Assembly: GCA_020056225.1 (NCBI GenBank)
Contig: JAGVIE010000019.1
Span: 1-51,948, forward strand
Length of the DNA stretch: 51,948 bases
Source: Bacteroidota bacterium
GTDB taxonomy: Bacteria; Bacteroidota; Ignavibacteria; UBA10030; SZUA-254
Reading direction: 5' to 3'
Of this stretch, positions 7,506 through 48,146 are shown piece by piece. Every line of letters begins with the position of its first letter. Position 1 is the first letter of the stretch. The position numbers and the translations under genes were made by a program. Below the pieces are notes generated by a model, which was not told the origin of the DNA, ran no database searches, and saw nothing but the letters and a program-made list of their open reading frames with translations.

Positions 7506-7550
7506 CAGCCTTGGTGGTACTTCATCAGAAGTAATGAATCTACTCGAAAG

Positions 7551-7581
7551 CCGGTTCCGATTTGCTGGGACCGGTTTTTTT
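7551..7581 (+). terminator. Rho-independent terminator after the repeat-protein gene
   Basis: Stem CCGGTTCC (7551-7558) pairs with GGGACCGG (7567-7574) with one G-T pair and an 8-base loop, followed by seven T residues (7575-7581). It lies 45 bases after the stop codon. Confidence 0.8.
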
Positions 7582-7864
7582 ATTGTCGACAGTGCAGATA
7601 ATTAAGCGTGTTCATCCCAATGTGGATCGTACTTAAGCGGAAATATTTTACTTTTGTAGAATCCGCACTGAACTATTTTCAATCTTACCCATTTCGTCCA
7701 CAGACTTTCAGAATGCTCGTAATAATTGTTATACATTTCTATCACAATATGCCTTAAATTTAGTCGTTCTAAACGATTATTCAGGTAATCACTTCATTTT
7801 CCAGCTTACCGCTATCTATTTATAGTACTGGTATAGCGGTTGACTATTTAATAGTCAGAGGATT
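7582..7864 (+). promoter_or_regulatory. Leader of the M6 protease gene with two hairpins next to the ribosome binding site
   Basis: A TACTTTTG box at 7649-7656 fits the Bacteroidota -7 consensus but has no clear -33 partner. Nearer the gene, ACCGCTAT (7808-7815) and ATAGCGGT (7833-7840) form a perfect 8-base inverted repeat. GACTATTTAATAGTC (7842-7856) forms a second hairpin that ends where AGAGGA (7857-7862) begins. The hairpins could affect translation start; this is inference. Confidence 0.35.
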
Positions 7865-10800: not shown

Positions 10801-10921
10801 GTTCGATGCCTCTGACTATTCCTCTGGTTTGTATTTCTACTCTATTAAAATCCATGAACTGGGCGCTGATGAATCGGGATCGATCTACTATCGAACGAAA
10901 GAAATGATTTTGATGAAATAA
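7865..10921 (+). CDS. Secreted M6-family zinc metalloprotease with InlB-like repeats and T9SS sorting domain
   Basis: The product is a predicted exported endopeptidase of the M6 (immune inhibitor A-like) family, 1018 aa. A hydrophobic signal segment spans about 17-38. The catalytic region holds HETGH (His268, Glu269, His272) followed by the family-typical AIFGLPDLYD. A DNDGDGYVD calcium-loop-like motif lies at about 199-207. Three InlB-like repeats (about 490-714) resemble those of the upstream 2318-aa protein. They are followed by an IPT/Ig-like segment (LTKIVNGNGYRGDSKEI), a fibronectin-like segment and a T9SS type A sorting domain (NYPNPFNPTT to EMILMK). The ATG is preceded by AGAGGA only 2 bases away. 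Co-orientation and shared repeats suggest that both proteins work at the same surface. Substrate unknown. Confidence 0.9.
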   Translation: MKSVVNIVFIGRHRRVLSVFFHSLILLSAGLIITSTLNASVSPHPRVEQMVKEKQITMPYYLAHQSELHTRGINSPERLPKIIKHNNGLSISSTGFKALAICIDFTDKRALTSAAQYDTLLFGTYKRSLRNYYREISYGMLDIITIDMPGTIGWESASQQYSYYVNGQNGFGAFPHNAQKLTEEAITAADSIVDFSQYDNDGDGYVDALYIIHAGSGGEITGSSNDIWSHTWTTSTPIISDGVKVFVYSMEPEYWLSPGDMTCGVFAHETGHAIFGLPDLYDLNGDSHGLGRWSLMASGSWNGSLGNSPSHPDAWSRWKMGFVDPIIVTSEIFDVQIPAIEESSKVYRLWSKGTTGTEYFLVENRQQIGFDTQLKGAGLCIYHIDEIRAGNNNQWYPGYTSFGHYQVALEQADGKWELEKRLSSGDAGDPYPGLSVNRSFGSSTIPPSLDYNGSSSYVAVNNISNSGRLMTATFFVDSISIDTIAVDTAHYITVGVSAHGSISPSGKISIQTGGSQIFTITPDTGYYISDVHVDSVSIGSVSVFEFANVISDHSINATFSRLTYQVFVETGTGGIINPSGVSYVAHGDQQTFNIIPNLGYILDSLYIDGIHVGTTSSYTFYNVTSSHQIKAGFALTIYTIQATAGGNGDITPSGIINVFYGENQSFRIQPQSGYNIDSLFVDGIHADSLTGYTFSNVTGNCSIHVIFKQQLYPIPILTKIVNGNGYRGDSKEILILGSNLLQGKTSVITGDGLSILSLRFSTVSSESLWASILIDSQATPGTRNIIVFNDYPVGEGSESQSFTILNRLPAAVIMATPSNNDTIGSHGAGAVDFRWNRSIDLDKADTVKYSIHVWGSDLDTTVLSLSDTSFSLNILPLIPPDENYYWTVIVTDGYGIIVPTDTFKFVASILNDIKETRSNAGKNFELYQNYPNPFNPTTSISFELSQRAIVSLKIYNVLGQLAATLINDEQFEEGYREVKFDASDYSSGLYFYSIKIHELGADESGSIYYRTKEMILMK
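9332..10005 (+). repeat. Three InlB-like repeats inside the M6 protease gene
   Basis: Three units of about 74 aa, each ending in a pattern such as SYTFYNVTSSHQIKAGF, match the majority repeat type of the 549-7505 protein. They sit between the catalytic region and the Ig-like segment. Confidence 0.8.
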
Positions 10922-33092: not shown

Positions 33093-33641
33093 ATGAAAAA
33101 CGGTTTCTTTCTCTTAAAGATAATTTGCTTGTCATGTATCTATATGTTGATCAACGGAAATATAAAAGCCCAGGTTCAAGAAGGCGTTTTGGGATCTACA
33201 ATACCGTCGGCGGCATCTGTAGCATCATATTATTTTATTTCCAAACCCGGTGAGCTGACTATGCAGGTTAATATTTGGGGATATGTTCGTAATCCGGGAA
33301 GATATGAAATTCCAAGTTCTACCGACCTGATTCAACTAGTCTCGTATGCGGGCGGACCAATTCCGGATGGCGACATGAGTGATGTAAAGGTAACCCGCCT
33401 ATTGAAAAATGATTCGACATATACGCATCAAGAGTTTAATGTTGACCTTGCGGATCTGACTAATATCAAGTCAACTGATTTGAATCTATATCCAGGAGAT
33501 ACGATTTTTATCGACCGAACAAGCTGGTCATCTTTCAGAGATATTCTTACCGTCATGATACCAGTTGCTACTGTAGCCATGACTGCGTGGCTGGTAATCA
33601 TTACGAACCAAAATAGCAACCTGCGACAATCTACACCATGA
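33093..33641 (+). CDS. Minimal SLBB-domain polysaccharide export protein
   Basis: The 182-aa protein has a signal (LLKIICLSCIYMLINGNIKAQ). One SLBB domain follows (about 58-150; VNIWGYVRNPGRYEIPSSTDLIQLVSYAGGP), and then a single hydrophobic segment near the C-terminus (DILTVMIPVATVAMTAWLVII). The Poly_export (PES) domain of Wza-type proteins is absent, and the size is about half of Wza. It may supply a periplasmic ring attached to the membrane, with a Wza-like pore encoded elsewhere. It overlaps the next gene by 4 bases (ATGA), so the two are translationally coupled. AAGGA lies 9 bases before the start. Confidence 0.8.
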   Translation: MKNGFFLLKIICLSCIYMLINGNIKAQVQEGVLGSTIPSAASVASYYFISKPGELTMQVNIWGYVRNPGRYEIPSSTDLIQLVSYAGGPIPDGDMSDVKVTRLLKNDSTYTHQEFNVDLADLTNIKSTDLNLYPGDTIFIDRTSWSSFRDILTVMIPVATVAMTAWLVIITNQNSNLRQSTP

Positions 33642-35002
33642 TTAGCGGTTATTCACAGCAATTATTTTTTGTTTTTGCTCTGATTAGCGCGGTAATACTT
33701 ACCTACAAAGGCACAAAAAAACACCGGATAATTACTTTTTTGTTAACATTCTGGCTGTTAGGCGCCTCGATCATTCATCTTGAAGCATACAATTTGCCGT
33801 TGAAATTTTTAGGCGGTGAAATGCAGTATAAGCGGCTGGTGTTTCTTATATTATTGTTTTATCTAACAATGTTTATATTTTTGAAACCCAGATTGCCGGA
33901 AAGAATTCCCCGCCTTCCATTCGAGAAATATATATTTGCGTTCTTCGGATGGTTTATGGTTGTAATTGGCTATCATTTTTTCACCGGTACACTCGGGACA
34001 AGAGACTTTGTCGAGGTTGCCGAAGGTGTTATGCTGGTACTGGTTTTATTTTTGGTTCTGAAGCATATAGTTACTATCGAAATATTACAAGTTTTAGGGC
34101 GAGCTATCATTTTGGTTGCGGTGCTGTCTTCGTTAGTAGCGATTGTACAATTTTTTGGAAATCCCTGGTTCCTTCGTATCGGTAGCGACCTGACTGCGTT
34201 CGGAGGAAAATTACGAAGCAATGGATTGTTCTATGCAGAATATGTGCACAGTTATGCTTGCGTGATGGCGCTGATGGTAACTCTTCTTGGAGTCAAAGAG
34301 GGGAAAATACGAAATGGATTAGTGGCGCTGCTGCTGGTCGGGATTGTTTTATCATTCCATAGAATGAGTTGGATTGTTACAATTGTTATATTCGTCTTAT
34401 ATATCCTTCTTTTTAATAGAACTGGTTTTAAGAAATTTATTGTCTGGGTTCCGCTTGCGGCTTCCATCATATTGTTTTTATCTCTTGAAATATTCCAGGT
34501 TGTAGATAGGGTTCAAGAATCGTCCTTCTATAAAGCGAGATTAAGTCAGAATAGTTTAGATAGCCGGGAGAAACTTAGCGAGATGGCATTAAGGCATCTT
34601 GATGAGATTTTCTTTTTGGGGGCAGGTAGCTCCAAAAGTGGAGTGTATTATTATGCAATGATGAATGCTGTGAATGACAGAGATTGGGCTATGGGTTTAA
34701 GGGGTGGATTCCATAACATTTATGTCTATAGCCTATTTTTTTATGGAGTGCCGTTTGCTGTTATTTTTATTCTAATGTTGATAGTAGTTATAAGATATTT
34801 TCTAAAATCATTTTTTGCCGGAGAAGCTTTTTCCTTTTTTCCGTTTCTCTTTCTTGTTATGTTTATAATAATGAATATAACAAATTGCTTTCCTGTTGAA
34901 TATGATTTTGGATTTTACTTAGGTCTATTTCTCGGATGCGGCGCTGCAGTTATTTCAAAAAATATTCCAGCAGACAATCTTCTTATCTTCAAGAGTGCAT
35001 GA
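33638..35002 (+). CDS. O-antigen polymerase/ligase-like membrane protein (Wzy-like)
   Basis: The 454-aa integral membrane protein has about 11 hydrophobic segments. The large loop between later segments includes SSFYKARLSQNSLDSREKLSEMALRH and FFLGAGSSKSGVYYY, with the arginine-rich RxxxW/R-type loop seen in O-antigen ligase/polymerase families. It probably joins repeat units made on the lipid carrier. It starts by an ATGA overlap with the SLBB gene and ends by an ATGA overlap with the flippase gene. The family cannot be separated into ligase or polymerase by sequence alone. Confidence 0.8.
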   Translation: MISGYSQQLFFVFALISAVILTYKGTKKHRIITFLLTFWLLGASIIHLEAYNLPLKFLGGEMQYKRLVFLILLFYLTMFIFLKPRLPERIPRLPFEKYIFAFFGWFMVVIGYHFFTGTLGTRDFVEVAEGVMLVLVLFLVLKHIVTIEILQVLGRAIILVAVLSSLVAIVQFFGNPWFLRIGSDLTAFGGKLRSNGLFYAEYVHSYACVMALMVTLLGVKEGKIRNGLVALLLVGIVLSFHRMSWIVTIVIFVLYILLFNRTGFKKFIVWVPLAASIILFLSLEIFQVVDRVQESSFYKARLSQNSLDSREKLSEMALRHLDEIFFLGAGSSKSGVYYYAMMNAVNDRDWAMGLRGGFHNIYVYSLFFYGVPFAVIFILMLIVVIRYFLKSFFAGEAFSFFPFLFLVMFIIMNITNCFPVEYDFGFYLGLFLGCGAAVISKNIPADNLLIFKSA

Positions 35003-36219
35003 GTAAAGTTAATTTTAAATATGGACAAGCCGGGTCACTTTATATAGCGGTACTATTGAGCATCGTTATCGGGATAGGATCGAGTATAATAACAACACGA
35101 ATTCTTGGTCCGCAAGATTATGGCGATTTGAAATTTATTCAAAATTTTTTCCAACTCTTGGCTACGATAGCTCCTTTCGGAATCCTCCCAACAGGCGCAT
35201 TATTATTGGCACGCATGAGAGAAAACGATCTTCGTAAATCCGAATTGATTGGGGCAATCCTACTCATCACGGCGTTTTTATCTCTGGTGTTCATGACGAT
35301 TTCCGTCGGGTTTTCATTTTTTGAAAATCGATTGTTAGGTAATCTTCTCGGACAAACAATTTTATTATTTTCGCCTTTGGTTGCAATCTTGATTTTCCAG
35401 CCTTGTCTTGAATATATACTGCAGGGAGACAATCAAATTTACAAATTGTCTTTTTCCCGGATAATGCCTGGGTTACTGTATGTTATTCTTATGTTATTGA
35501 TGCAGTATTTTTTTCATATTACGCTCGGGATGTCTCTTTTAATTCAACTGGTTACATCCGGCATTATTACTATCGTAATTATCCAACAGCTTCACCCGAC
35601 TCTAACTCATTTTAAAGAAAATAAAAATACTATCATTGAGGCAAATAAGCATTACGGTTGGCATATATATCTTGGGAGTTTAAGTAGTGTTGCTACCTCG
35701 TATTTGTCTACCTTTATGATAAGTTATTATATTGACAATACTCAGGTTGGTTTTTTTGCTCTTGCAACAACGATATCGATGCCGTTAGCGCAGATTGCGA
35801 ATGTTGTCGGCACAACATATTTTAAAGATTTTACTAAGGAAAAATTCCTCCCTCGTAAAATTACTCTAGTCGCCGTAGGCTTCACTTTGGTGGCTTTTGG
35901 TTTATTCGTTATATTTATTAAGTATCTTGTTGTTATATTGTATACCCAAAAATTTATAGAAGTCGTCTCGCTCTCTTATATCATTGCACTAGGTTATTCG
36001 TTTTTAGGAATCGGCGATTTCCTCAACCGATTTCTTCAGGCGCACGGTAAGGGTAAGGAATTGCGGAACGGAGCCTTCTTGGTTGGTTTTGTAAATATTT
36101 TCGGGTATTTTTTACTCATAAAATTTTTCGGAGTTACCGGTGCTGCAATAACTCAGTGTTTATCGGGTTTTATATATCTCTGTGTGATGTTTTATTACTA
36201 CAGAAATTTCAAAAGGTAG
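34999..36219 (+). CDS. Polysaccharide flippase (Wzx/MATE-like)
   Basis: The start is placed at 34999 because ATGA overlaps the upstream stop. The in-frame start at 34936 would lie inside the polymerase gene. The 406-aa product has the MOP-superfamily pattern: the first helices carry GSLYIAVLLSIVIGIGSSIITTRILGP followed by DYGDLKFIQNF, and 10-12 hydrophobic segments follow. It probably flips undecaprenyl-linked repeat units to the periplasm. It is followed by 124 non-coding bases with a hairpin and then the CapE-like gene. Confidence 0.85.
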   Translation: MSKVNFKYGQAGSLYIAVLLSIVIGIGSSIITTRILGPQDYGDLKFIQNFFQLLATIAPFGILPTGALLLARMRENDLRKSELIGAILLITAFLSLVFMTISVGFSFFENRLLGNLLGQTILLFSPLVAILIFQPCLEYILQGDNQIYKLSFSRIMPGLLYVILMLLMQYFFHITLGMSLLIQLVTSGIITIVIIQQLHPTLTHFKENKNTIIEANKHYGWHIYLGSLSSVATSYLSTFMISYYIDNTQVGFFALATTISMPLAQIANVVGTTYFKDFTKEKFLPRKITLVAVGFTLVAFGLFVIFIKYLVVILYTQKFIEVVSLSYIIALGYSFLGIGDFLNRFLQAHGKGKELRNGAFLVGFVNIFGYFLLIKFFGVTGAAITQCLSGFIYLCVMFYYYRNFKR

Positions 36220-36279: not shown

Positions 36280-36343
36280 GATATTATTTTAGATTTACTT
36301 ACATTAACGAAACAAATACTTCTTTTACAATTTGGAGCACAAT

Positions 36344-37348
36344 ATGCTAAATGGAAAAACACTTATGATAACCGGTGGTACGGGTTCATTTGGAACAACG
36401 TTTGTTGATAGAGTGTTGCGCGATTATTCCCCTTCTTCCATAATAATTTTTAGTAGAGATGAGAAGAAACAATTCGATATGAGAAATAGATTACACACGC
36501 CTATATTAAAATTCGTTATTGGCGACGTGAGAGAGAGAGACAGAGTATTCCAGGCGATGAAGGGGGTCGATTATGTATTTCATGCAGCCGCTCTAAAGCA
36601 GGTTCCTACCTGTGAATTTTTTCCTTATGAAGCTGTGATGACTAATGTAATAGGAACGCAAAATGTGCTTGATGCTTCTGAGGAAAATGAAGTAGATAAA
36701 GTTATAGTTCTAAGTACCGATAAAGCCGTATATCCGATTAATGCCATGGGTTTATCAAAGGCAATTCTGGAAAAATTAATGCTAGCGAAAGCAAGAACAT
36801 TCTCAAGCAAAACAGTATTTTGCGGTGTTCGCTATGGAAATGTGATGTATTCTCGCGGATCGGTTATTCCGCTCTTTATTGAACAAATACAAAATAAGAT
36901 GCCCGTCACAATTACAAATCCGGCAATGACTAGATTCTTATTACCGCTGCCAATCGCAATTGAACTTGTAATCTATGCTCTTCAAAAAGGAGAGAACGGT
37001 GATATTCTAGTCCGGAAATCTCCCGCAGCTACTATTGAAATGATTGCTGATGTAATATTGGATATTTTTCAATCAAAGTACGGGAAGAAAATAATCGGGA
37101 CAAGAGAAGGCGAAAAACTTCATGAGACGTTAGTAACTCAAGAGGATTTACTTAAAGCGCAAAGTTATGACGATTTTTACCGGATTAAAAATTTAGAACG
37201 TCTTGACTACGATAAATATTTTGTTGAAGGAACGATTGATAAATTTCCTAAAGAAGGGTATACTTCAGAAAATACTAAGAGACTCGATTTTAGCGGGACA
37301 AAAGAACTCATTCTATCATTACGCGAGGTTCAGGATTTATTGAAATGA
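36344..37348 (+). CDS. capE: UDP-GlcNAc inverting 4,6-dehydratase (CapE/FnlA/WbjB-like)
   Basis: The ATG at 36344 is chosen because GGAG lies 6 bases upstream. The earlier TTG at 36332 overlaps that site. The product is 334 aa. The NAD-binding motif is GGTGSFG (11-17). STDKAVYPINAMGLSK (124-139) supplies Ser124, Met135 and Lys139, an SMK triad in which Met replaces the usual Tyr. That replacement is typical of the inverting dehydratases that make UDP-2-acetamido-2,6-dideoxy-4-keto-hexoses. In this family the enzyme also epimerises C5 (and C3) on the way to L-FucNAc. It overlaps the CapF-like gene by ATGA. Confidence 0.9.
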   Translation: MLNGKTLMITGGTGSFGTTFVDRVLRDYSPSSIIIFSRDEKKQFDMRNRLHTPILKFVIGDVRERDRVFQAMKGVDYVFHAAALKQVPTCEFFPYEAVMTNVIGTQNVLDASEENEVDKVIVLSTDKAVYPINAMGLSKAILEKLMLAKARTFSSKTVFCGVRYGNVMYSRGSVIPLFIEQIQNKMPVTITNPAMTRFLLPLPIAIELVIYALQKGENGDILVRKSPAATIEMIADVILDIFQSKYGKKIIGTREGEKLHETLVTQEDLLKAQSYDDFYRIKNLERLDYDKYFVEGTIDKFPKEGYTSENTKRLDFSGTKELILSLREVQDLLK

Positions 37349-38472
37349 GTAAAATTAAAGTTGGAATTACCGGGCAAAGCGGTTTCATAGGGTATCATCT
37401 CTTTCATTATTTAGCGACCAAGACCGATAATATCGAATTAGTTCAATTCAACGATAATTATTTCTCGCAACATTCGGCTCTCCAGGATTTTGTGAATCAA
37501 TGCGACGCTATTGTTCACCTTGCCGCTATGAACAGGGGAAATGAAATAGAAATTTATGATACTAATATCCGGCTTGTTCAGGAATTAATCTCTGCTTTAA
37601 GATCGACTCCGAAAAATACCCACGTAATTTTTGCTTCATCTGTACAGGAGAACCGTGATAATGTTTATGGAAGATCAAAAAAGGAAGGTCAAATATTATT
37701 TGATGAATGGGCCGCGACATCGAACGGAAGAAGCACAACACTTATCATACCGAATGTTTTCGGAGCATTTTGTAAGCCACACTATAACTCAGCAGTAGCT
37801 ACGTTCTGTTATCAACTCTCGCATGACCAGTCGCCGGAAATTAAAATAGACGCGGAACTTCCCTTGATATATGTGAATGATCTTGTCGATAATATTTATC
37901 GGGAAATAATTTCCAGGCGCGCCGATAAGACAATAAAGATTTTTGTTCCGGAGACTGAACACCGCAAGGTTTCCAATCTACTTCATCAGTTGCTTAATTT
38001 TAAAAAAGATTACCTCGCGGATGATTTAATCCCGGAGTTAAAAACACCATTTGATGTCGCATTGTTCAATACGTTTAGATCTTATATCGATTATTCATAT
38101 TATCCTCACAAGATTCCTGTTAAAGAAGATGAACGCGGATACCTGGTAGAAAATATAAAATCACAAAGTGCCGGGCAAACTTTTTTTTCTGTTACAAAAC
38201 CAGGGATCATTAGAGGAAACCATTATCACTTTCGTAAATTCGAAAGATTCTGTGTTATATCAGGTGAAGCTGTAATTCGATTAAGAAAAATAGGTACGCA
38301 GGAAGTAGTCGAATATAGAGTATCCGGTGAAGAACCGTCGTATGTAGATATACCTATATATCACACGCACAATATCGAGAATATAGGGAAAATAAAACTA
38401 TTGACTATATTTTGGTGCAACGAATTTTACAATCCAAATGATTCAGACACCTACTTCGAGAATGTCAGATGA
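37345..38472 (+). CDS. capF: Bifunctional UDP-4-keto-sugar reductase/epimerase, CapF-like
   Basis: The 375-aa protein has an N-terminal SDR domain (GITGQSGFIGYHL, 8-20; VYGRSKKEGQ) and a C-terminal cupin-type domain (about 250-370; ITKPGIIRGNHYHFRKFERFC-like, with KPGIIRGNHYH and PIYHTHNIENIG). This two-domain layout is diagnostic of CapF/FnlB. In that family the cupin domain epimerises C3 and the SDR domain reduces the 4-keto group, giving UDP-N-acetyl-L-talosamine. It is coupled by ATGA overlaps to both neighbours, CapE-like and CapG-like. Confidence 0.9.
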   Translation: MSKIKVGITGQSGFIGYHLFHYLATKTDNIELVQFNDNYFSQHSALQDFVNQCDAIVHLAAMNRGNEIEIYDTNIRLVQELISALRSTPKNTHVIFASSVQENRDNVYGRSKKEGQILFDEWAATSNGRSTTLIIPNVFGAFCKPHYNSAVATFCYQLSHDQSPEIKIDAELPLIYVNDLVDNIYREIISRRADKTIKIFVPETEHRKVSNLLHQLLNFKKDYLADDLIPELKTPFDVALFNTFRSYIDYSYYPHKIPVKEDERGYLVENIKSQSAGQTFFSVTKPGIIRGNHYHFRKFERFCVISGEAVIRLRKIGTQEVVEYRVSGEEPSYVDIPIYHTHNIENIGKIKLLTIFWCNEFYNPNDSDTYFENVR

Positions 38473-39632
38473 AAAATAAGAAGAGCAATTTAAAGGTTTT
38501 GACCTTTGTGGGTACACGACCTGAGGTAATACGATTATCTCAAACCATGCTTCTGCTGGATAAATATGTTAACCATGTGGTAGTTCACACGGGACAAAAT
38601 TATACCTATGAATTAAATAAAATATTTATCAAAGATCTCGGCATACGAAAACCGGATTATTATTTAAAAGTTAATACTTCTACGCTCGGTTCGATGATGG
38701 GCGATACCCTGATAAAAGCTGAAAAAGTATTATTAAAAGAAAAACCGGATGCTGTGCTGATTTTGGGAGATACCAATAGTTCGATAGCAGGGATTATGGC
38801 TAAAAGATACAAGATACCGATCTACCACATGGAAGCAGGCAATCGGTGCTATGATCAGAACGTTCCTGAAGAAATCAACCGAAAAATCATAGATCATATT
38901 TCGGATTTCAACTTGGTTTACACCGAACATGCCAGAAGACAATTACTCTCCGAAGGAATTCCGCATCGCCGAATTTATCTTACCGGCTCTCCGATGAATG
39001 AAGTATTGAAGTATTATGAAAAAAAAATAACGCAATCGGCAATTTTAACAAAATTACAGTTAAAGCCGCATGATTTTTTCCTCGTCAGTGCGCATCGGGA
39101 AGAAAATGTCGATAAACCGGAATCATTGCGCTTGATCATCAAGACAATAAATAATATTGCATCTGAATACGGTAAGAAAATAATTATATCAACCCATCCA
39201 AGAACCCTGAAGAGAATACAAGAAGAGGGAAACATAAAGTTTAACAAAAATATTCTCATGCTAAAACCTTTTGGTTTTACAGACTATGTATGGCTGCAGA
39301 TGAATGCAATCTGTACTCTTTCTGATAGTGGAACAATTAGCGAGGAGTCTGCGATATTAGGATTTCCGGCGATTACGATAAGAAATGCAACCGAGCGTCC
39401 GGAGGCTCTCGATGCAGGCTCAATTATTCTTACGGGCATCGATGAGTCGACGATAGCCGATTCAATCAAGCTTGTAATAGATGAAACACGTATTCGTGCC
39501 CCTCAATCGCGGCCCGCAGACTATGGCGTATCAAATACATCATGGAGGGTGCTGAAATTAATTTTAGGTACTGCTAAGTTAAGCAACAAATGGGCTGGTA
39601 TAGAGATTAATCGAAAAATTAAAGATCAGTAA
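38469..39632 (+). CDS. wecB: UDP-N-acetylhexosamine 2-epimerase, CapG/WecB-like
   Basis: The 387-aa protein is a non-hydrolysing UDP-GlcNAc 2-epimerase family member. Visible features are VGTRPEVIRLS (about 15-25), VVHTGQNYTYELNKIF, ILGDTNSSIAG, MEAGNRCYDQNVPEEINRKI, SAHREENVDKPE and LSDSGTISEESAILGFPAITIRNATERPEALD. WecB makes UDP-ManNAc. Placed third after CapE and CapF, this copy is expected to act as CapG/FnlC, converting UDP-L-TalNAc to UDP-L-FucNAc. The three together form the complete known cassette. Confidence 0.9.
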   Translation: MKNKKSNLKVLTFVGTRPEVIRLSQTMLLLDKYVNHVVVHTGQNYTYELNKIFIKDLGIRKPDYYLKVNTSTLGSMMGDTLIKAEKVLLKEKPDAVLILGDTNSSIAGIMAKRYKIPIYHMEAGNRCYDQNVPEEINRKIIDHISDFNLVYTEHARRQLLSEGIPHRRIYLTGSPMNEVLKYYEKKITQSAILTKLQLKPHDFFLVSAHREENVDKPESLRLIIKTINNIASEYGKKIIISTHPRTLKRIQEEGNIKFNKNILMLKPFGFTDYVWLQMNAICTLSDSGTISEESAILGFPAITIRNATERPEALDAGSIILTGIDESTIADSIKLVIDETRIRAPQSRPADYGVSNTSWRVLKLILGTAKLSNKWAGIEINRKIKDQ

Positions 39633-39649
39633 TATTACTTGCTAATATT

Positions 39650-40837
39650 GTGAAATTATTTATTGTTACAGATGAGCCTGTCCCATATGGAATGGCAGCA
39701 ACAAACCGAATGCTCTCACTCTCCAGGGGTCTGGTAGAAGAAGGTATACCGGTTCAAGTTATTTGTATTCGAACGACTGAAAAACGCGAGGAGAATATAA
39801 TAAACAAAAATTCAACCGGTACCATTCAGGGTATTCAGTATGAGTATTCATGCGGAACTACTCTACGAGGAGAAACCTTTTTTAAAAGACGTTATTTGTC
39901 GATGAGGGGAATTTGGTACAGCGTTTTCTTGCTGCGAAAAGCTCAGAGTCAAGATATTCTTATGCTGTATCTAAGTTCGCCATCCCAGGTGATTTTTTAC
40001 TATTTGGCGGCAAAATTATTCGGTTTATATTATATCATAGATAAGAGTGAGTATCCATTCGTCCTAAATAATAAATCAGCAATAGGAAAATTTTATGCGT
40101 ATTTATATACTTCATACATATATAAATTATTCGACGCAATACTTGTAATGACCACACCATTGCAATCCTATTTTGCTAAGAGGATCCGAAAAAATGCAAA
40201 ACTGTTATTAGTGCCGATGACGGTTGAAAGTGCAAGATTTCTGAATAATCAAACTATATCTCCGGAGAGAGATCGTTATATAGCTTACTGCGGTTATCTT
40301 GGTGGAAATAAAGACGGAGTCTCTATCCTTATTAACTCATTTGCTCTTCTTTTAAAAAAAATCAATAATATTAAACTTTATATTATCGGTGATGCTCAGG
40401 ACACAAATGATTTGGAAAACTTACAGGCATTAGTCAAGGAATTAAATATAGAAAAGTATGTTGTCTTTACCGGACATGTATCGCGGGAAGATATGCCGGG
40501 TTATTTATGTCATGCTGCCGTACTCGCCCTTGCAAGACCAACAAGTCTGCAATCACAGGGCGGCTTCCCGACAAAGCTCGGCGAATATCTTTCTACCGGA
40601 AATCCTGTTGTTGTTACGAGCGTGGGAGATATTCCGTTTTTTTTAAAAGACGGAGATAACGCTTTTTTATCCGTTCCCGACAGTGCCGAGGCATTTGCGC
40701 AAAAATTAGAGTATGTTCTTACAAATCCCGAACACGCGAAGCAGGTCGGGATAAAAGGGCGGGAAACGGCGCTTACAAATTTCGATTATAAAGTTCAAGC
40801 AAAACGGTTAGTTGATTTCTTAAGTACAATCTCCTGA
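39650..40837 (+). CDS. GT4-family glycosyltransferase
   Basis: The 395-aa protein has a GTG start and GT-B fold. The N-terminal part opens MKLFIVTDEPVPYGMAATNRMLSLSRGL. The C-terminal donor domain has GYLGGNKDGVSILINSFALL, a VVFTGHVSREDMPGYLCHA segment and FPTKLGEYLSTGNPVVVTSVGD, the last being the E-x7-E-like region of family 4. It begins 17 bases after the 2-epimerase gene and is followed 6 bases later by the CapA-like gene. A retaining mechanism is expected. Donor and acceptor cannot be predicted, although transfer of the locally made L-FucNAc is one option. Confidence 0.85.
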   Translation: MKLFIVTDEPVPYGMAATNRMLSLSRGLVEEGIPVQVICIRTTEKREENIINKNSTGTIQGIQYEYSCGTTLRGETFFKRRYLSMRGIWYSVFLLRKAQSQDILMLYLSSPSQVIFYYLAAKLFGLYYIIDKSEYPFVLNNKSAIGKFYAYLYTSYIYKLFDAILVMTTPLQSYFAKRIRKNAKLLLVPMTVESARFLNNQTISPERDRYIAYCGYLGGNKDGVSILINSFALLLKKINNIKLYIIGDAQDTNDLENLQALVKELNIEKYVVFTGHVSREDMPGYLCHAAVLALARPTSLQSQGGFPTKLGEYLSTGNPVVVTSVGDIPFFLKDGDNAFLSVPDSAEAFAQKLEYVLTNPEHAKQVGIKGRETALTNFDYKVQAKRLVDFLSTIS

Positions 40838-40842: not shown

Positions 40843-42060
40843 ATGTCGAATAACAGCATCATAGATCAGATTCATAACGAAGAGATTTCCGTCAGGGATA
40901 CCGATTGTGAAACGGTTGATATACTCTTTGCAGGTGATTTCTATATGGGAAACCTTACCCGGGAACTTTGCCGGAAGAACGAATATGAAAAAATATATAA
41001 TGAAGTACTTCCCGCATTAAAGCAAAAGGATCTATCGATTGTCAATTTGGAAAACCCACTCACGGGTGAAGAAAATCCGATTCCCAAGGTCGGTCCGCAT
41101 CTTAATGCGCCGCCGGATTGCATACGTGCAATTCAATATGGAGGATTTGATGCCGTCGCATTGGCAAATAATCATATTCTCGATCATGGCGCTATAGGTT
41201 TGAAAAATACCATTGCCGCTTGTCAGGCGAGACATCTAAAAACCGTAGGTGCCGGACTTTCCTCCGACGAAATCCAAAAACCTTTGATAGTGAATGTAAG
41301 ATCGGTAAGGATCGGATTAATCAACGTTACCGAAAATGAATTTTCAACTATCAGAGACGGCGAAGCCGGAGCAAATGCACTTGATCTTATCTCGGTATAT
41401 CGGCAAATTACCGATGCAAGAAAAAATGCGGATGTACTTTTCATCATTGTTCACGGCGGGCACGAGTTCTATCCGCTGCCCAGTCCGGGAATGGTAAAGA
41501 TGTACCGTCACTTTGCAGACCTCGGGGTAGCGGCAGTCATCGGACATCATCCGCATTGCGCAAGCGGATTCGAGATCTGGAATGGCGTGCCGATATTCTA
41601 TAGTCTCGGTAACTTTGTATTCGATTGGCACGAACCACAAGAGGAGATTTGGTATAAGGGATATTTCGTCAAGTTGACGGTTGACAGTTCGTCGGTGGTT
41701 CGGATGAAAATTTTTCCTTATAATCAATTCAAGGATGATTCGGGTTTGCACTTCATGCAGGGTGTTGAAAAATCGGACTTCCTAAATAAAGTTGCCGAAT
41801 ATTCTGAAATCATTCGGGATAGCTCGGTTTTGGATAAAAGCTGGAAAGAGTTTTGTGATTCGAAAAAGTATGAGTATTTGAAAAACCTCCTCGGTCTTAA
41901 TCGAATTGAAAGTGCATTGTTGAAAAGAGGCATAGGTGCCGGTTATATTTTTCCTCGAAAAGATAAGTTGATACTGCTGAATTTAATGCGTTGCGAGGCG
42001 CACCGTGACGTATCGGTTGAAATATTAAAACAATTAATTTCAGGAGAGAAAATAAAATGA
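40843..42060 (+). CDS. CapA-family (PGA_cap) metallophosphatase-like protein
   Basis: The 405-aa protein is CapA-like. Visible metal-site segments are LFAGDFYMGN (about 27-36), VNLENPLTG, DAVALANNHILDHG (about 103-116), IIVHGGHEFYPLPSP and AAVIGHHPHCASGFEIWNGVPIFYSLGNFVFD (His residues in GHHPH). In Bacillus, CapA belongs to the poly-gamma-glutamate complex, but many paralogues serve other polymers. No signal peptide is visible, so it may be cytoplasmic. It is coupled by ATGA to the ATP-grasp gene, and no CapB or CapC is present. Confidence 0.85.
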   Translation: MSNNSIIDQIHNEEISVRDTDCETVDILFAGDFYMGNLTRELCRKNEYEKIYNEVLPALKQKDLSIVNLENPLTGEENPIPKVGPHLNAPPDCIRAIQYGGFDAVALANNHILDHGAIGLKNTIAACQARHLKTVGAGLSSDEIQKPLIVNVRSVRIGLINVTENEFSTIRDGEAGANALDLISVYRQITDARKNADVLFIIVHGGHEFYPLPSPGMVKMYRHFADLGVAAVIGHHPHCASGFEIWNGVPIFYSLGNFVFDWHEPQEEIWYKGYFVKLTVDSSSVVRMKIFPYNQFKDDSGLHFMQGVEKSDFLNKVAEYSEIIRDSSVLDKSWKEFCDSKKYEYLKNLLGLNRIESALLKRGIGAGYIFPRKDKLILLNLMRCEAHRDVSVEILKQLISGEKIK

Positions 42061-43106
42061 AGGTCGGAATTCATATAGACCCGGATGGAAGTCCGGATAA
42101 AACACTTCTTCGGTATGAAAAAATTCTCGAATTCAACGGAATAAAATATGCACGGATGAACGTTAACCAGCCGGATTTTTGGCAACAAGTTGAGAAACTC
42201 GATTTATTTATATTTGACTGGTATTGGACATCCCGTCAACATCAAATGGCGCCGACCATCCTTTCATTGATAGAGAATGAAATGAATGTAAAATGTTTCC
42301 CGAATCAAAAAACATGGTGGACATACGACGATAAGATAAGAGAATACTATCTTTTAAAGCATCATTCTTTTCCGGTTATCCCGACATGGATATTTTGGGA
42401 TGAAACTTCTGCTCTTGAATGGCTTGATAGTACAGAATTACCGGTCGTTTTTAAATTGAAGGGTGGAGCAGGCTCTGAAAACGTCGTATTAGTAAAAACA
42501 AAGTCTCACGCAGAACTACTTATACATAAAATGTTCGGTAAAGGGATCGTGTCGGGACGTGTGCCCGGCACACTGAATTTAAGAATAAATGACCTTGGTT
42601 ATTTTAAAACTATTAGACGTTATGTGGGAGATCGATTGAGAACGTTACAATTAAAAGATATCTCTCCATTTGAACAAAAGCATAAAAATTATACACTATT
42701 TCAAAAATATTTGGGCGGGAATACATTTGACGCAAGAATAACGACGGTAGGAAACAGGACATTCGGAAGTATTAGATACATGAGAAAAAACGATTTTCGG
42801 GCTTCCGGCAGTGGAAGCAGTAGTTGGGCGAAAAAGGATATCGATCTCCGATGCATCGAAATCGCGCACAGAGTTTCAAAGAAATTGAATTTTCAAAGTA
42901 TGGCGTATGATTTTTTGTTCGACAATGACAACAAACCGTACATCGGTGAGATATCATTCACTTCACCCGATTGGTCTGTCTGGAAGTCACCCGGTTATTG
43001 GGACAATAATTTGGAATGGCATGATGGTCAGTTCTGGCCCCAGTATTGTATCCTTATGGATATGCTGAACCTTCCGGATTTGAAACAGCCTGCAATGGAA
43101 CGGTAA
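42057..43106 (+). CDS. ATP-grasp-type ligase
   Basis: The 349-aa protein is ATP-grasp-like. The N-terminal pre-domain starts MKVGIHIDPDGSPDK. The ATP-binding part has TYDDKIREYYLLKHHSFPVIPTWIF, then FKLKGGAGSENVVLVK (about 136-151) as the flexible glycine-rich loop, and a C-terminal YDFLFDNDNKPYIGEISF (about 282-299) that carries the metal-binding acidic and Asn/Glu residues of RimK-type enzymes. Such enzymes join a carboxylate to an amine using ATP. Partnered with CapA and set between glycosyltransferases, it may attach an amino acid or amide to the polysaccharide; that is inference. It starts by an ATGA overlap. Confidence 0.8.
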   Translation: MKVGIHIDPDGSPDKTLLRYEKILEFNGIKYARMNVNQPDFWQQVEKLDLFIFDWYWTSRQHQMAPTILSLIENEMNVKCFPNQKTWWTYDDKIREYYLLKHHSFPVIPTWIFWDETSALEWLDSTELPVVFKLKGGAGSENVVLVKTKSHAELLIHKMFGKGIVSGRVPGTLNLRINDLGYFKTIRRYVGDRLRTLQLKDISPFEQKHKNYTLFQKYLGGNTFDARITTVGNRTFGSIRYMRKNDFRASGSGSSSWAKKDIDLRCIEIAHRVSKKLNFQSMAYDFLFDNDNKPYIGEISFTSPDWSVWKSPGYWDNNLEWHDGQFWPQYCILMDMLNLPDLKQPAMER

Positions 43107-43113: not shown

Positions 43114-44238
43114 ATGAATAACAAAAAGCGAAAAGTGTGTATATTCGGTTCACAGGTAGCTTCGGCGCTTCAAGGGAACGCAATGGGCGGAGCTGAATTG
43201 CAAATGGCGATGCTCGCGAAAACTTTAGCAGAGCATAATATTGAGGTTGTGGTGATCGATAGGGAAGCGAAAGAAGATTTTCAATTTGACCGGAACATTC
43301 AGATTCGATCGATCCCCGGGTGGTACCGGGGGATTCGTGGTCTCAGATTTTTCACACATCGAGTTCCCAATTTTATCAGGACTCTAAGAAATATTCACGC
43401 ATCGCTGTTTTATGTCAGAGGAATATCTTATCTTTTCCTGATACCGCTCTATGTCGCGAAGCGATGTAAAGCGAAGTTTGTTCTTGCGATATCACACGAT
43501 TCGGAATTGTGGCGGTTTCAGGAACGCTTCAAAGTGTTTTATCGTAAGAATTCATCAGTTTGGGATTGGATATCGACCAATATACCGAACGAGGTTGCAG
43601 CCTACTTTCTTGTACGGTTTTGCGATGTATTGCTCGTTCAGCATGAAGAACAAGCACAGAAGGTTTCTTCGCTTGGGAAAAAAGTAATCTTGTTGCCGAA
43701 TATGTTCGATCCAAGGATCGAACATATTTCACGAAACAAATCTAACGGCAATATTGTTATTATTGGAGCATTATCAAACCGCAAGGGATTGGATTTATTT
43801 TTGCCGGTTGTCCAAAAACTCAAACATGTAACGTTCGAGTTTGTAGGGGAAGCAGAAGATATAGAGGGAAATAGAATTAAAGAGCAATTAAAAAAATGTC
43901 CGAATGCGATTTTACACGGTTGGCTCAATCGTGAAGATACGCTCAGGAAAATTGCATCTGCGAAAGCGCTAGTCAATACTTCGCGCATGGAAGGATTCCC
44001 GAACGCATTTATTGAAGCATGGGCGCTGAGAACTCCGGTTATATCGCTTTCTGTAGATCCCGGTAATGTGATTAAAAATCATAAACTTGGTTATGTATGT
44101 AATGGCAATGTTGAATTGCTTGAAGAACTATTACTTAAAGATACATTGGACTTAAACACCGCTCAAATTCAGGATTATGTTTTGAAACGTCATTCTGCTA
44201 AATATACCATCAACGTATTTGAGGATATTATCTCATGA
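43114..44238 (+). CDS. GT4-family glycosyltransferase
   Basis: The 374-aa GT-B fold protein has acceptor-side motif GNAMGGAELQMAMLAKTLAEH (about 20-40) and a donor domain with IIGALSNRKGLDLFLPVV, VGEAEDIEGN and HGWLNREDTLRKIASAKALVNTSRMEGFPNAFIEAWALRTPVI (about 270-312). The last contains the E-x7-E-like pattern of family 4. It lies 7 bases after the ATP-grasp gene and overlaps the next glycosyltransferase gene by ATGA, so the two are likely to be produced together. Sugar specificity is unknown. Confidence 0.85.
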   Translation: MNNKKRKVCIFGSQVASALQGNAMGGAELQMAMLAKTLAEHNIEVVVIDREAKEDFQFDRNIQIRSIPGWYRGIRGLRFFTHRVPNFIRTLRNIHASLFYVRGISYLFLIPLYVAKRCKAKFVLAISHDSELWRFQERFKVFYRKNSSVWDWISTNIPNEVAAYFLVRFCDVLLVQHEEQAQKVSSLGKKVILLPNMFDPRIEHISRNKSNGNIVIIGALSNRKGLDLFLPVVQKLKHVTFEFVGEAEDIEGNRIKEQLKKCPNAILHGWLNREDTLRKIASAKALVNTSRMEGFPNAFIEAWALRTPVISLSVDPGNVIKNHKLGYVCNGNVELLEELLLKDTLDLNTAQIQDYVLKRHSAKYTINVFEDIIS

Positions 44239-45383
44239 CGGATAATATGCCTAAATCCGTACGTGTACTATTCATTGTGGCAAGAATGCCGGTCGGAGGT
44301 GCGGAAACCTTTTTAATAAGCCTGTTGAATCGGTTGGATAAAAATCTGATTCAACCTTTTGTATTCTCCTTGGGATCCGAAGGTGATCCGTTATATCAAA
44401 AAATTCCTCAGGATGTTTTTAAATATGTTCGGGCAAGAAAATGGAGATACGATTTATCGCCGTGTGAATCTATCGGAAGTCTTATTGTATCCGAGAAGAT
44501 TCAGACTGTGGTTTGTTCCGACTATTTTACTTATTTTTATATCTGGAAAATACTCAGGAAACAAAAATTAAATATCCGTGTTATTATCTTGCTGCATGTT
44601 ACAAAACCCAGGCATCTTAAAGAATTTCTTCATGGATTCATTTTTGCTAGAATGTTGTCCGGCAGCGAAGAAATTCTGACTACATGCGAGAATCAGCGGA
44701 AATTCCTTTCCCGTATATTTATGATTCCGCAGAAAAGGTTTGCTGAAATTATATACAACGGTGTTGATACAAATTACTGGACCCTTCCGGCAGACTCACA
44801 GCGAAGGCTAGATCTTAGGAAACAATTCGGTATTCCAGAGAATGCGATTGTGATTATCAATGTAGCCGGATTTCGGAAAGAAAAGAGACACGACCTGATG
44901 GTAAAAGCTTTTCATGAATTATATTTGAAGAGCAGTCGTGAAGATATATATCTGGTATTCGTCGGTGGCGGCGACAGACAGATTCAGGATTCAGCGCAGC
45001 AGTTGGCGCGTCAATATAATTTATCCGGAAAGATAATATTCGCGGGCATACAGGATGATTTAAGATCAATGTATTGGATGGCGGATATTTTTACGTTAGG
45101 ATCGACAAGTGAAACATTTTCTATCGCCGCGCTGGAAGCTATGTCAACCGGTCTCCCGAGTGTGCTGACCGATATTGGCGGAGCAAGCGAGATGATTCAG
45201 ACAAATATCAATGGCGTAATCGTGAAGCCTTACTCATCGCAGGCTCTCGCTTCTGGATGGATGAAATGTATCGAGCTGCTTCCATCCATGGATAACTCTG
45301 ATATCAGGAATGGTGTTGTTGACCGGTTTAATTTGAATAATTGCATTCAATATTACAATCGTTATCTGTCAGGATCAAACTGA
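44235..45383 (+). CDS. GT4-family glycosyltransferase
   Basis: The 382-aa GT-B protein has VARMPVGGAETFLISLLNRLD (about 16-36). The donor domain has GFRKEKRHDLMVKAF, VFVGGGDRQIQDSAQQLA and SETFSIAALEAMSTGLPSVLTDIGGASEMI (about 292-321), with the E-x7-E-like acid pattern. It overlaps the upstream glycosyltransferase gene by ATGA and is followed by the epimerase gene after 31 bases. It is probably one of four transferases that build the repeat unit. Confidence 0.85.
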   Translation: MTDNMPKSVRVLFIVARMPVGGAETFLISLLNRLDKNLIQPFVFSLGSEGDPLYQKIPQDVFKYVRARKWRYDLSPCESIGSLIVSEKIQTVVCSDYFTYFYIWKILRKQKLNIRVIILLHVTKPRHLKEFLHGFIFARMLSGSEEILTTCENQRKFLSRIFMIPQKRFAEIIYNGVDTNYWTLPADSQRRLDLRKQFGIPENAIVIINVAGFRKEKRHDLMVKAFHELYLKSSREDIYLVFVGGGDRQIQDSAQQLARQYNLSGKIIFAGIQDDLRSMYWMADIFTLGSTSETFSIAALEAMSTGLPSVLTDIGGASEMIQTNINGVIVKPYSSQALASGWMKCIELLPSMDNSDIRNGVVDRFNLNNCIQYYNRYLSGSN

Positions 45384-45414: not shown

Positions 45415-46389
45415 ATGAATATTGTCGTTACAGGTGGCGCAGGTTTTATCGGATCGAATCTAATCGACCGTCTCCTCGAGAATGGACATGCGGTAATATG
45501 TCTCGATAATTTTGACGATTACTACGATCCCGGTGTGAAAGAAAAAAATTTGATTGGAGCACGGAAAAATAAAAATTTCGTGCTTCTTAGAGGAGACATA
45601 CGTGACGAGCAGATACTCGAGAAATGTTTTTCCGAACATCACGCTGATCTTGTAATTCACCTTGCGGCGAGAGCCGGTGTGAGACCCTCACTTGCAAACC
45701 CGCATCTTTATTATGATGTGAATGTTGTTGGAACGCTCAGACTTCTCGAAGCGATGAGAAAATATAAAGTCACAAATCTTATCTTCGGTTCATCTTCATC
45801 GGTTTACGGAAATAATAACAAAATCCCGTTTTCCGAGATCGATCCGGTAGATCATCCGATCTCGCCTTATGCCGCAAGCAAAAAAGCGGCTGAGCTGTTA
45901 TGCCATACATATCATCATCTCTATAAATTCAATATATTTTGTCTTCGTTTTTTTACGGTGTATGGGCAAAGACAAAGACCGGAGATGGCTATTCATCATT
46001 TTGTAAGAAGAATACTCAGCGGAGAACAAATTACACTTTTCGGAGACGGAACAAGCCAGCGTGATTATACATTCATCGAGGATATCATTGATGGAATAAC
46101 GAAATGTATGAATGTGCTTCATGGTTATGAGATTATCAATTTAGGCGAGTCGCAGACAATTTCATTGATCGATCTTATCAAAGTGATCGAAGAACTGACA
46201 GGGAAGAAAGCGGTTATCGATTGGAAACCAATGCAGCCGGGTGACGTGATGAAGACTTATGCAGATATTAGTAAAGCAAAAAAAATACTTGGTTATCATC
46301 CCGGATATTCTATTAGAGATGGTCTGAGCCGGTTTATCGATTGGTTCCAGAACAATCAGGATAAGAGTATTTCTGGGATTCATCTTTAG
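45415..46389 (+). CDS. UDP-glucuronate 4-epimerase-like NAD-dependent epimerase
   Basis: The 324-aa extended SDR has TGGAGFIG (6-13), FGSSSSVYG (about 126-134) and Y152AASK156 as the catalytic Tyr-Lys pair. RFFTVYGQRQRPEMAI with CLRFFTVYGP-like spacing and FGDGTSQRDYTFIEDIIDGI are typical of the UDP-glucuronate 4-epimerase/UDP-glucose 4-epimerase-related group. It would interconvert UDP-GlcA and UDP-GalA, and so supply a uronic acid. No UDP-glucose dehydrogenase is in the window, so UDP-GlcA must come from elsewhere. Substrate assignment is moderate. Confidence 0.75.
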   Translation: MNIVVTGGAGFIGSNLIDRLLENGHAVICLDNFDDYYDPGVKEKNLIGARKNKNFVLLRGDIRDEQILEKCFSEHHADLVIHLAARAGVRPSLANPHLYYDVNVVGTLRLLEAMRKYKVTNLIFGSSSSVYGNNNKIPFSEIDPVDHPISPYAASKKAAELLCHTYHHLYKFNIFCLRFFTVYGQRQRPEMAIHHFVRRILSGEQITLFGDGTSQRDYTFIEDIIDGITKCMNVLHGYEIINLGESQTISLIDLIKVIEELTGKKAVIDWKPMQPGDVMKTYADISKAKKILGYHPGYSIRDGLSRFIDWFQNNQDKSISGIHL

Positions 46390-46455
46390 CCGAATCTGAT
46401 TAGACAGTAGTACCACATGAATAAATAGTTGAAGTATAGCAGGAGAATAAATCTA

Positions 46456-47436
46456 ATGAAAAAAGTTTTAGTTACAGGTGCCGGAGGATTCATCGGCAGT
46501 CATCTAACAGAAGAGTTGGTTAACAATGGATACCATGTAAGGGCATTTGTTCGCTACAACAGTCGGAACAATTGGGGGCATTTGGAATCCCTTGACAAAT
46601 CAATTTTGGATCGCATAGAGATTATGACCGGTGATATTACAGATCCGTTTTTTGTTGATAAGGCTGTTGAAGGAACAGACACGATATTTCATCTTGCGGC
46701 GTTAATCGCTATTCCATATTCGTATGCCGCTCCCGAGAATTTTGTCAATGTCAATATCAACGGAACATTGAATGTTCTTAAAGCGGCGCTGCATCATAAT
46801 GTTACACGAGTTGTTCATACGTCAACATCGGAGACGTACGGTACCGCCCTTTACACACCGATCAATGAACAGCATCCACTTCAGGCACAATCGCCGTATT
46901 CAGCTACTAAAATCGGCGCAGATAAATTAGCTGAAAGTTTTCACCTGTCGTTCGGTTTGCCGGTATCAATCGTCAGGCCCTTCAATACTTATGGTCCGAG
47001 GCAATCTGCGCGCGCTATAATCCCAACATTGATCAGCCAGATATTGAGCGAGCAAAATTTTATCAAGGTCGGTTCATTACATCCGGTTCGTGATTTTACT
47101 TTCGTGAAGGATACGGTAAATGGTTTCATCAGCGCGGCAATGTCTGATGGGTCGATCGGAAAAGTGACGAATATCGGTACCGGCTCCGGTATCTCGATCG
47201 GCGACCTGGTGAAAAAAATAAAAATGCTTTTAGGTAAAGAAAAAGACATAGTTGTTGATGACCAGAGAATCAGGCCCGAAAACAGCGAAGTATTAAAACT
47301 AATATGCGATAATTCGATGGCAAAAAATATCCTCGGCTGGTCACCAGCATATTCCCTAGATGAGGGCTTACGGAAAACCATTGATTACATCAAGGACAAT
47401 CTTAAATTTTATAAAACGAATATTTATAATATCTAG
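46456..47436 (+). CDS. LegB-like NAD-dependent nucleotide-sugar 4,6-dehydratase
   Basis: The ATG at 46456 is preferred because AGGAGA lies 9 bases upstream. The TTG at 46429 has no such site. The product is 326 aa. The nucleotide motif is GAGGFIG (8-14) and the catalytic pair is Y148SATK152. VRAFVRYNSRNNWGHLE, VRPFNTYGPRQSARAIIPT and VRDFTFVKDTVNGF match the LegB group, which makes a 4-keto-6-deoxy GlcNAc nucleotide (GDP- or UDP-linked) in legionaminic acid synthesis. The other leg genes (legC, legG, legI, legF) are absent. The following nucleotidyltransferase and Rmd-like genes suggest a different final sugar. Confidence 0.8.
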   Translation: MKKVLVTGAGGFIGSHLTEELVNNGYHVRAFVRYNSRNNWGHLESLDKSILDRIEIMTGDITDPFFVDKAVEGTDTIFHLAALIAIPYSYAAPENFVNVNINGTLNVLKAALHHNVTRVVHTSTSETYGTALYTPINEQHPLQAQSPYSATKIGADKLAESFHLSFGLPVSIVRPFNTYGPRQSARAIIPTLISQILSEQNFIKVGSLHPVRDFTFVKDTVNGFISAAMSDGSIGKVTNIGTGSGISIGDLVKKIKMLLGKEKDIVVDDQRIRPENSEVLKLICDNSMAKNILGWSPAYSLDEGLRKTIDYIKDNLKFYKTNIYNI

Positions 47437-47444
47437 GAGATAAC

Positions 47445-48146
47445 ATGCAGGCTATTTTGGTAGCAGGAGGGCAAGGAAAAAGACTTCAGCCGTATACTCT
47501 GGTCATTCCCAAACCGCTGATTCCCATTAAGGATGAACCGATTATGGAAGTGATTGTCAAGCAGTTGGCTAGACATGGGTTCAAACAGATTCATATGTGT
47601 ATCGGTTATTTTGGCGAACTACTTCAAACATTTTTTGGAGATGGTTCAAAGTACAAACTTAAAATAACGTATTCGAAAGAAACAAAACCGCTCGGAACAA
47701 TCGGACCTTTAACTTTAATCGAATCTCTGGATGATGATTTTTTAGTCATGAATGGAGACACTCTATCCGATATGAATTATAAAGAGCTTCTGAAGAAGCA
47801 TAAACTCTCGAAGAGTGCATTAACAATCGCAACGTTTTCGAAAAAAGTGAAAATCGAACTAGGTATTTTGGAATACAATAGTGATAAGAGTTTAAAAGAT
47901 TACATAGAAAAACCTACACTGTCTTATGAAGTCAGTACGGGAATTTACGCGCTCAACAAAGAGGTCATCAAGCTTTTGAAACATAACGAATATTTTGATT
48001 TTCCATCTCTCGTTAAGCTGCTGCTTAAGAAGGGGATGAAAGTCAACACAGTGCACCACGATGGTATCTGGCACGATTTGGGAAGTATTGAAAGCTTTGA
48101 ATCCGCTTTGGTGGATTATGAAAAAATGAAAATCAATGCCAGATGA
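47445..48146 (+). CDS. Sugar-1-phosphate nucleotidyltransferase
   Basis: The 233-aa protein is a short NTP-transferase. Its start MQAILVAGGQGKRLQPYTLVIPKPLIPI is the hallmark nucleotide-binding loop (GGxGxRL...PKPLIPI). VMNGDTLSDMNY holds the metal-binding Asp, and IEKP and GIYALNKEVI are further family features. The length fits the PtmE/HddC-type guanylyl- or cytidylyl-transferase group rather than long RmlA- or ManC-type enzymes. Its ribosome binding site AGGAGA overlaps the stop of the LegB-like gene, so the two are coupled. It probably makes the GDP- or other NDP-sugar used by LegB. The nucleotide cannot be told from sequence alone. Confidence 0.8.
   Translation: MQAILVAGGQGKRLQPYTLVIPKPLIPIKDEPIMEVIVKQLARHGFKQIHMCIGYFGELLQTFFGDGSKYKLKITYSKETKPLGTIGPLTLIESLDDDFLVMNGDTLSDMNYKELLKKHKLSKSALTIATFSKKVKIELGILEYNSDKSLKDYIEKPTLSYEVSTGIYALNKEVIKLLKHNEYFDFPSLVKLLLKKGMKVNTVHHDGIWHDLGSIESFESALVDYEKMKINAR

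Follow-up and report, generated by a model that had tools for sequence, protein, structure and literature searches.

A capA gene overlaps an ATP-grasp ligase gene within a polysaccharide locus

The window, by which we mean the whole 51,948-nucleotide stretch of DNA analysed here, carries a polysaccharide gene cluster on its forward strand, and within this cluster a gene for a CapA protein overlaps one for an ATP-grasp ligase. The features are as follows:

33638..36219, + strand: Wzy_C/O-antigen ligase-family protein and Polysacc_synt flippase-type protein (profile matches)
36332..37348, + strand: UDP-GlcNAc 4,6-dehydratase/5-epimerase-like protein (FnlA model 393 bits, under the cut-off of 730)
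37345..38472, + strand: WbcJ-like reductase (246 bits, under the cut-off of 500)
38469..39632, + strand: non-hydrolysing UDP-GlcNAc 2-epimerase, WecB type (266 bits, over the cut-off of 210)
39650..40837, + strand: group 1 glycosyltransferase with a GTG start, 5 nt before capA (profile match; frequent neighbour of the pair)
40843..42060, + strand: CapA/PGA_cap subfamily protein, 405 aa (PF09587 at 210 bits, structure model, residues)
42057..42060, + strand: ATGA stop/start overlap of capA and the ATP-grasp gene (sequence)
42057..43106, + strand: RimK/LysX/ArgX-like ATP-grasp ligase, 349 aa (PF08443, structure model, conservation)
43114..44238, + strand: group 1 glycosyltransferase, 7 nt after the ATP-grasp gene (profile match)
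44235..45383, + strand: group 1 glycosyltransferase (profile match)
45415..46389, + strand: GalE-type SDR, possibly a UDP-uronate 4-epimerase (profile comparison)

Also encoded on this strand around the pair are an SLBB protein, a protein of the Wzz/tyrosine-kinase type and several SDRs, and the group 1 glycosyltransferases number four. The ATGA overlap likely couples translation of the ligase to that of CapA, and the two genes also overlap at L080, L081, L098 and L100, making five of the 13 loci, window included, at which the two genes are co-located. Promoter and terminator scans across the cluster gave results at chance level. A profile search of the genome from which the window comes returned a single PF09587 match and no match to CapC (B. 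subtilis control positive) or PgsB (B. subtilis control over the cut-off), so the genome does not show the CapB/PgsB plus CapC that would mark a CapABC system. These results bear out the preliminary description of a CapA protein paired with a RimK-type ATP-grasp ligase, without CapB or CapC and flanked by glycosyltransferases, here those at 39650, 43114 and 44235.

Some of the surrounding genes recur at other loci. Homologues of the 39650 glycosyltransferase accompany the pair at L009, L016, L079, L100, L101 and L102, besides the window, and the ligase alone at L017 and L096. FnlA-, WbcJ- or WecB-type homologues were found at L016, L100, L101 and L102 and, with the ligase alone, at L017, L087 and L099. 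The CapA-ligase unit is thus frequently, though not invariably, placed close to a FucNAc-type sugar pathway. WbuB of E. coli is a known L-FucNAc transferase, according to an excerpt of PMC5560731, and by its position the 39650 protein may be WbuB-like.

Genes for uronic-acid formation occurred near some of the pairs. One UDP-sugar dehydrogenase in the genome scored over its cut-off, on a different contig. Among the eight other pair loci with genome coordinates, a count that leaves out L009, L010, L012 and L016, a UDP-sugar dehydrogenase lay within about 25 kb of the pair in four (G121, G165, G031 and G416), and G122 had only a partial 27-bit match near the pair. Uronic-acid genes were rejected as a constant companion of the pair. 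Because the genome encodes a UDP-sugar dehydrogenase and the 45415 protein resembles GalE-type epimerases, a uronic acid is nevertheless a possible acceptor of the substituent. The earlier suggestion that the 45415 epimerase would provide this uronic acid needs correcting: the protein is a GalE-type SDR, for which UDP-uronate 4-epimerase activity is one possibility.

Elsewhere in the window, a LegB-like dehydratase just under its cut-off is followed by a nucleotidyltransferase (46429-48146), and a 551-aa protein with a match to the GINT1_N glycosyltransferase domain (24302-25957) neighbours a 542-aa protein with no Pfam match at 1e-5. The region 543-10921 encodes probable type IX secretion cargo: a protein of 2320 aa that combines divergent InlB B-repeats with a Por secretion tail, followed by an M6 peptidase that shares this tail. 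A defence or phage origin for the pair was considered and set aside: PADLOC gave no hit, the ATP-grasp protein had no plasmid match, and CapA matched one phage family only (phrog_23677, itself without known function).

The ligase has the fold and catalytic acids of ArgX, LysX and RimK

The ATP-grasp protein scored over the PF08443 RimK cut-off (29.6 bits against 21) and under that of TIGR00768 rimK_fam (52 bits against 143), which places it outside the RimK family proper. By sequence, its matches to solved ATP-grasp enzymes were weak (best E 0.0012). Its structure model (pLDDT 83.7, with a low-confidence insert at about residues 173-199) aligned with ArgX (Z 23.6, rmsd 3.1, 274 aligned) and RimK (Z 23.1, rmsd 2.8, 272 aligned). 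The nine best structural rows were all ArgX, LysX or RimK, with Z from 22.2 to 23.6; other LysX entries, at Z 19.5 to 20.1, were level with D-Ala ligases (19.6).

The protein carries D285, E298, S300 and the motif R240xxR243xxDFRASG. Lysines 93 and 133, D285 and E298 were kept in all 37 ATP-grasp rows, and S300 in all 34 strong rows; RimK, LysX and ArgX have ExN at the position of this ExS. Together, the model and the aligned rows display the ATP-grasp fold and catalytic acids that define the RimK/LysX/ArgX group, and from these features amide formation is the likeliest activity predicted for the ligase. Assignment of the enzyme as TupA-like was rejected, as neither the protein nor its genome gave a PF14305 match and hhalign returned a probability of 1.1% (seven TupA rows, two shallow alignments).

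CapA resembles the peptide epimerase MslH in fold, with a site that also recalls phosphoesterases

CapA belongs to the PF09587 PGA_cap family (210 bits against a cut-off of 27) and falls well outside the MslH equivalog NF038314 (71 bits against 700). No N-terminal signal or membrane anchor is visible in its sequence. MslH structures were its only convincing solved relatives by sequence, and its model (pLDDT 76) also matched MslH best (Z 31, rmsd 2.7, 292 aligned), with phosphatases next at Z of about 16. The C-terminal motif N380..R383...H387 (N..R...H) falls in a stretch of low pLDDT.

The site residues of CapA are D32, E70, N110, H111, D114, H204, H236 and H238. MslH Glu44, Asn87, His88, Asp91, His259 and His295, whose roles are taken from an excerpt of PMC10406935, align with E70, N110, H111, D114, H204 and H238, and D32, at the start of the structural alignment, is the presumed counterpart of Asp11. 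CapA differs from MslH at two positions: H236, the first histidine of the GHxH pair, is kept where MslH has Gly293, and the calcium ligand His261 aligns with H207, a variable position. CapA thus lacks the combination of His261 ligand and glycine at GHxH that marks the single calcium site of MslH. When CapA was mapped to YmdB by motif order alone, eight of nine YmdB site residues (from the same excerpt of PMC10406935) had a CapA counterpart, and the equivalent of Asn40 was variable. Given the H236 that MslH has lost, the CapA site appears to resemble those of two-metal phosphoesterases. For a phosphoesterase the site seems to lack nothing, and for an epimerase of the MslH type little; the residues alone do not decide between the two.

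The preliminary description had proposed structure modelling with a view to carboxylate and amine pockets. The models delivered the folds, namely ArgX/LysX/RimK for the ligase and MslH for CapA.

The ligase recurs with and without CapA

We searched 395 genomes of the phylum for the ATP-grasp family at E 1e-10, counting matches above 270 bits as strong. The family occurred in 33 genomes, 23 of them strong. PF09587 exceeded its cut-off in nine of the 23 (including G365, at 28 bits), and in seven of these nine CapA stood beside the ligase or, in G251, one gene away. Since 16 of the 23 strong genomes had no CapA beside the ligase, CapA is optional for the ligase and the pair is not obligate. Among the ten weaker genomes, two (G122 and G416) had CapA next to the ligase or one gene away. 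A DNA-pattern scan of genome contigs yielded nine ATP-grasp loci, with CapA directly upstream of the ligase in three (L009, L010 and L012) and, in L016, on the downstream side with a gene between; no CapA was found in the fetched stretches of the other five, that of L011 being short. Of the bearers, Desulfamplus magnetovallimortis (L010) has both genes, and Robertkochia (L014) and Robiginitalea marina (L015) have the ligase only. The co-located loci are the window, L009, L010, L012, L016, L079, L080, L081, L088, L098, L100, L101 and L102, over which the largest gap between capA and the ligase gene is 1.9 kb. An AsnB-type amidotransferase lies between the two in L088, and a divergent form of it in L101.

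Several loci carried additional ligase-like genes. Two tandem ATP-grasp copies follow CapA in L079 (7050-9068) and L080 (8698-10942); in the L079 genome the copy on the CapA side has a stop within the match, and in L080 a sugar-transfer-type ATP-grasp (PF14397, 6452-7564) lies two genes past the tandem pair. At 13165-17030 in L012, downstream of the pair, a second, distant ATP-grasp is accompanied by an Asn-synthase-like protein of divergent type. In L082, L085, L088 and L090 the ATP-grasp gene is immediately preceded by that of an asparagine-synthase-type amidotransferase, recognised by Pfam in L088 and judged by the start of the protein in the others. Within 3 kb, G276 (L121 region) has an ATP-grasp of TupA-like type together with two proteins weakly related to the RimK-like family.

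A motif-bearing CapA subfamily lies near three kinds of carboxylate-activating enzyme

The N..R...H motif was present in one open frame in 10 of the 13 co-located CapA rows; the CapA of L081 is broken, with the motif in a second frame, and those of L098 and L102 are co-located without it. Four CapA rows without a RimK-like partner (L138-L141) also carry the motif, and none of the 17 other CapA rows of the order does. The N-termini of these 17 are mostly hydrophobic and signal-like by eye, and no RimK-like ATP-grasp was found in their loci, some of which lie on short contigs; the CapA site residues are kept in them as well. The ten co-located rows with the motif in one frame group together in the tree (support 100/98), in a clade whose record titles include Bacteroidetes, Desulfamplus and Candidatus Aegiribacteria, and all co-located CapA rows taken as a single group had support of only 60/24.

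A search with the CapA alignment at E 1e-55 found 12 of the 395 genomes, and motif-bearing CapA, defined by a 300-bit line drawn after viewing the list, occurred in 11. The excluded twelfth genome, G061, scored 190 bits without the motif and has a weak Asn-synthase match as neighbour. The partner was a RimK-like ATP-grasp in seven of the 11, a PaaK-like ligase in two and a TupA-like ATP-grasp in two, a count made after the neighbourhoods had been viewed and uncorrected for the frequency of such ligases around polysaccharide genes in general. All seven RimK-like cases had a gap of at most 1.9 kb, the partner in G122 being a distant member (130 bits). In G375 and G326 a PaaK-like adenylating ligase adjoins CapA (NCBIfam matches below cut-off); the two ligases are 33% identical to each other, and solved PaaK relatives were found for that of G375. 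The TupA-like enzymes of G139 and G268 matched PF14305 at 185 and 177 bits, and TupA-like genes are separated from capA by one gene in L140 and two in L141. Both TupA-like cases belong to a single genus and both PaaK-like cases to a single family, and TupA-like proteins occur in 6 of the 27 ATP-grasp genomes searched.

Both the CapA subfamily (11 genomes) and the ATP-grasp family (33) were present in seven of the 395 genomes, spread over five families (hypergeometric P ~4e-6, uncorrected for kinship). Both profiles had been seeded with paired rows, and our own genome and G031 were chosen as seeds because they are paired; with these two removed, five of nine remained (P ~2e-4, again uncorrected for kinship). 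Co-location and these probabilities, with or without the seed genomes, led us to reject random co-occurrence, one of the outcomes that the preliminary description had named as fatal to its proposal and for which it had called for this neighbourhood survey. Coevolution, as judged from CapA and ATP-grasp distance matrices, was rejected as not significant (Mantel r 0.38, P 0.056, 12 pairs; r 0.30, P 0.069, nine pairs). The pair is real and conserved and belongs to a wider CapA-ligase pattern. Our main argument for a shared substituent is that one CapA subfamily has carboxylate-activating enzymes of three kinds in its vicinity, and the TupA-like and PaaK-like cases fit a tailoring reaction that would be based on a carboxylate.

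A proposed two-enzyme unit for tailoring a surface glycan

We consider the chances about even that CapA and the ATP-grasp protein work together in the cytoplasm as a two-enzyme unit that tailors a surface glycan. In the first step, judging from its fold and residues, the ligase would convert a carboxylate into an acyl phosphate and couple this to an amine; either a sugar nucleotide or a lipid-linked precursor would carry the resulting amide. The likeliest product would be an amino acid on a uronic acid, with an amino acid on an amino sugar also possible. In the second step, CapA, as a soluble metalloenzyme, would process the newly installed group. The earlier idea of glycan decoration, in which an amide is a reasonable proposal, is partly supported by a conserved unit in polysaccharide loci and a probable amide-forming ligase; the uronic-acid genes it looked to are not constant companions.

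For the second step, our first choice, held tentatively, is an MslH-like epimerisation at the alpha-carbon of an amide-linked amino acid with a free carboxylate. We lean this way because the target of MslH, which alone among solved proteins is a convincing relative, is an amide-linked residue whose carboxylate is free, and because epimerisation could follow the action of any of the three types of ligase. Against it stand H236 in place of Gly293 and the variability of H207 at the His261 position.

Our second choice, more doubtful still, is a metallophosphatase: the ligase would place a phosphorylated amine, such as serinol phosphate or ethanolamine phosphate, on a uronic acid, and CapA would remove the phosphate. 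The motif-order match to YmdB (PMC10406935, excerpt) and the rank of phosphatases as next fold matches after MslH both fit this reading, which has the better precedent at the level of a whole system, as Cj1435 dephosphorylates the product that the C-terminal domain of Cj1438 makes with serinol phosphate or ethanolamine phosphate (PMC11800379, excerpt). However, the site residues are generic to the family, being kept in the 17 CapA rows without the motif as well, the nearest solved relative by far is an epimerase, and no gene for a phosphorylated amine turned up among the matches analysed.

It is unlikely that the ligase alone acts on the glycan and that CapA serves another target of the locus, for instance a nucleotide sugar or an intermediate attached to lipid, the two being neighbours through shared polysaccharide loci. 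Such separate roles would agree with the 16 strong ATP-grasp genomes lacking an adjacent CapA, with the four of 11 motif-bearing CapA genomes lacking the RimK-like family and with distances that do not clearly track each other, but the genes overlap in five of 13 loci, co-location exceeds chance even without the seed genomes, and the four exceptions have another carboxylate-activating ligase nearby. A stripped-down poly-gamma-glutamate system, in which the ATP-grasp enzyme would replace CapB and build a short amino-acid polymer while CapA kept its usual capsule role, recalls the family membership of CapA and the PDB title of RimK (poly-alpha-L-glutamate synthetase) but is very improbable given a genome without CapC or PgsB matches, a CapA without a visible anchor and a locus rich in glycosyltransferases.

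Extending the epimerase reading to the whole subfamily, motif-bearing CapA might act as a glycan amino-acid epimerase after a RimK-like, TupA-like or PaaK-like ligase, turning an L-amide into the D form, although we rate this broader claim as rather improbable. Amide-linked amino acids, some in the D form, occur in surface glycans, and Hafnia alvei is listed with D-allothreonine in amide linkage to galacturonic acid (PMC10609480, excerpt). If the claim is true, a CapA epimerase would be a route to D-amino-acid substituents such as this one. The recurrence of the subfamily near three kinds of carboxylate-activating ligase could serve as a genomic marker for amide-bearing glycans, and the pattern gives a widespread protein family a testable role.

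Comparison with known systems

The ligase shares its fold and catalytic acids with RimK, LysX and ArgX, and the DFR motif with RimK, but differs from all three in its ExS, its low-confidence insert and its polysaccharide context. CapA shares the PF09587 family with the CapA/PgsA proteins of poly-gamma-glutamate synthesis; unlike those systems, the pair lies in a polysaccharide locus of a genome that gave no match to CapC or PgsB, and no anchor is seen. MslH, which epimerises the C-terminal Trp of a lasso peptide, has a CapA-type fold and counterparts of the site residues, whereas its C-terminal region differs and the neighbours of CapA are glycosyltransferases.

The pair had been put forward as an undescribed tailoring system. 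Among the matches listed in the open-licence literature, none described polysaccharide loci in which CapA is paired with an ATP-grasp enzyme; the novelty is tempered by a resemblance to Campylobacter jejuni. The second enzyme of the window pair is a CapA protein, unlike Cj1435, and its ligase is RimK/LysX-like and free-standing, unlike Cj1438, in which a C-terminal TupA-like domain is fused to a GT2 domain. The closest known system is nonetheless the ATP-grasp amidoligase Cj1438 with Cj1435 of the HS:2 capsule, where, according to an excerpt of PMC11800379, an ATP-grasp enzyme forms an amide on a uronic acid and a second enzyme then acts.
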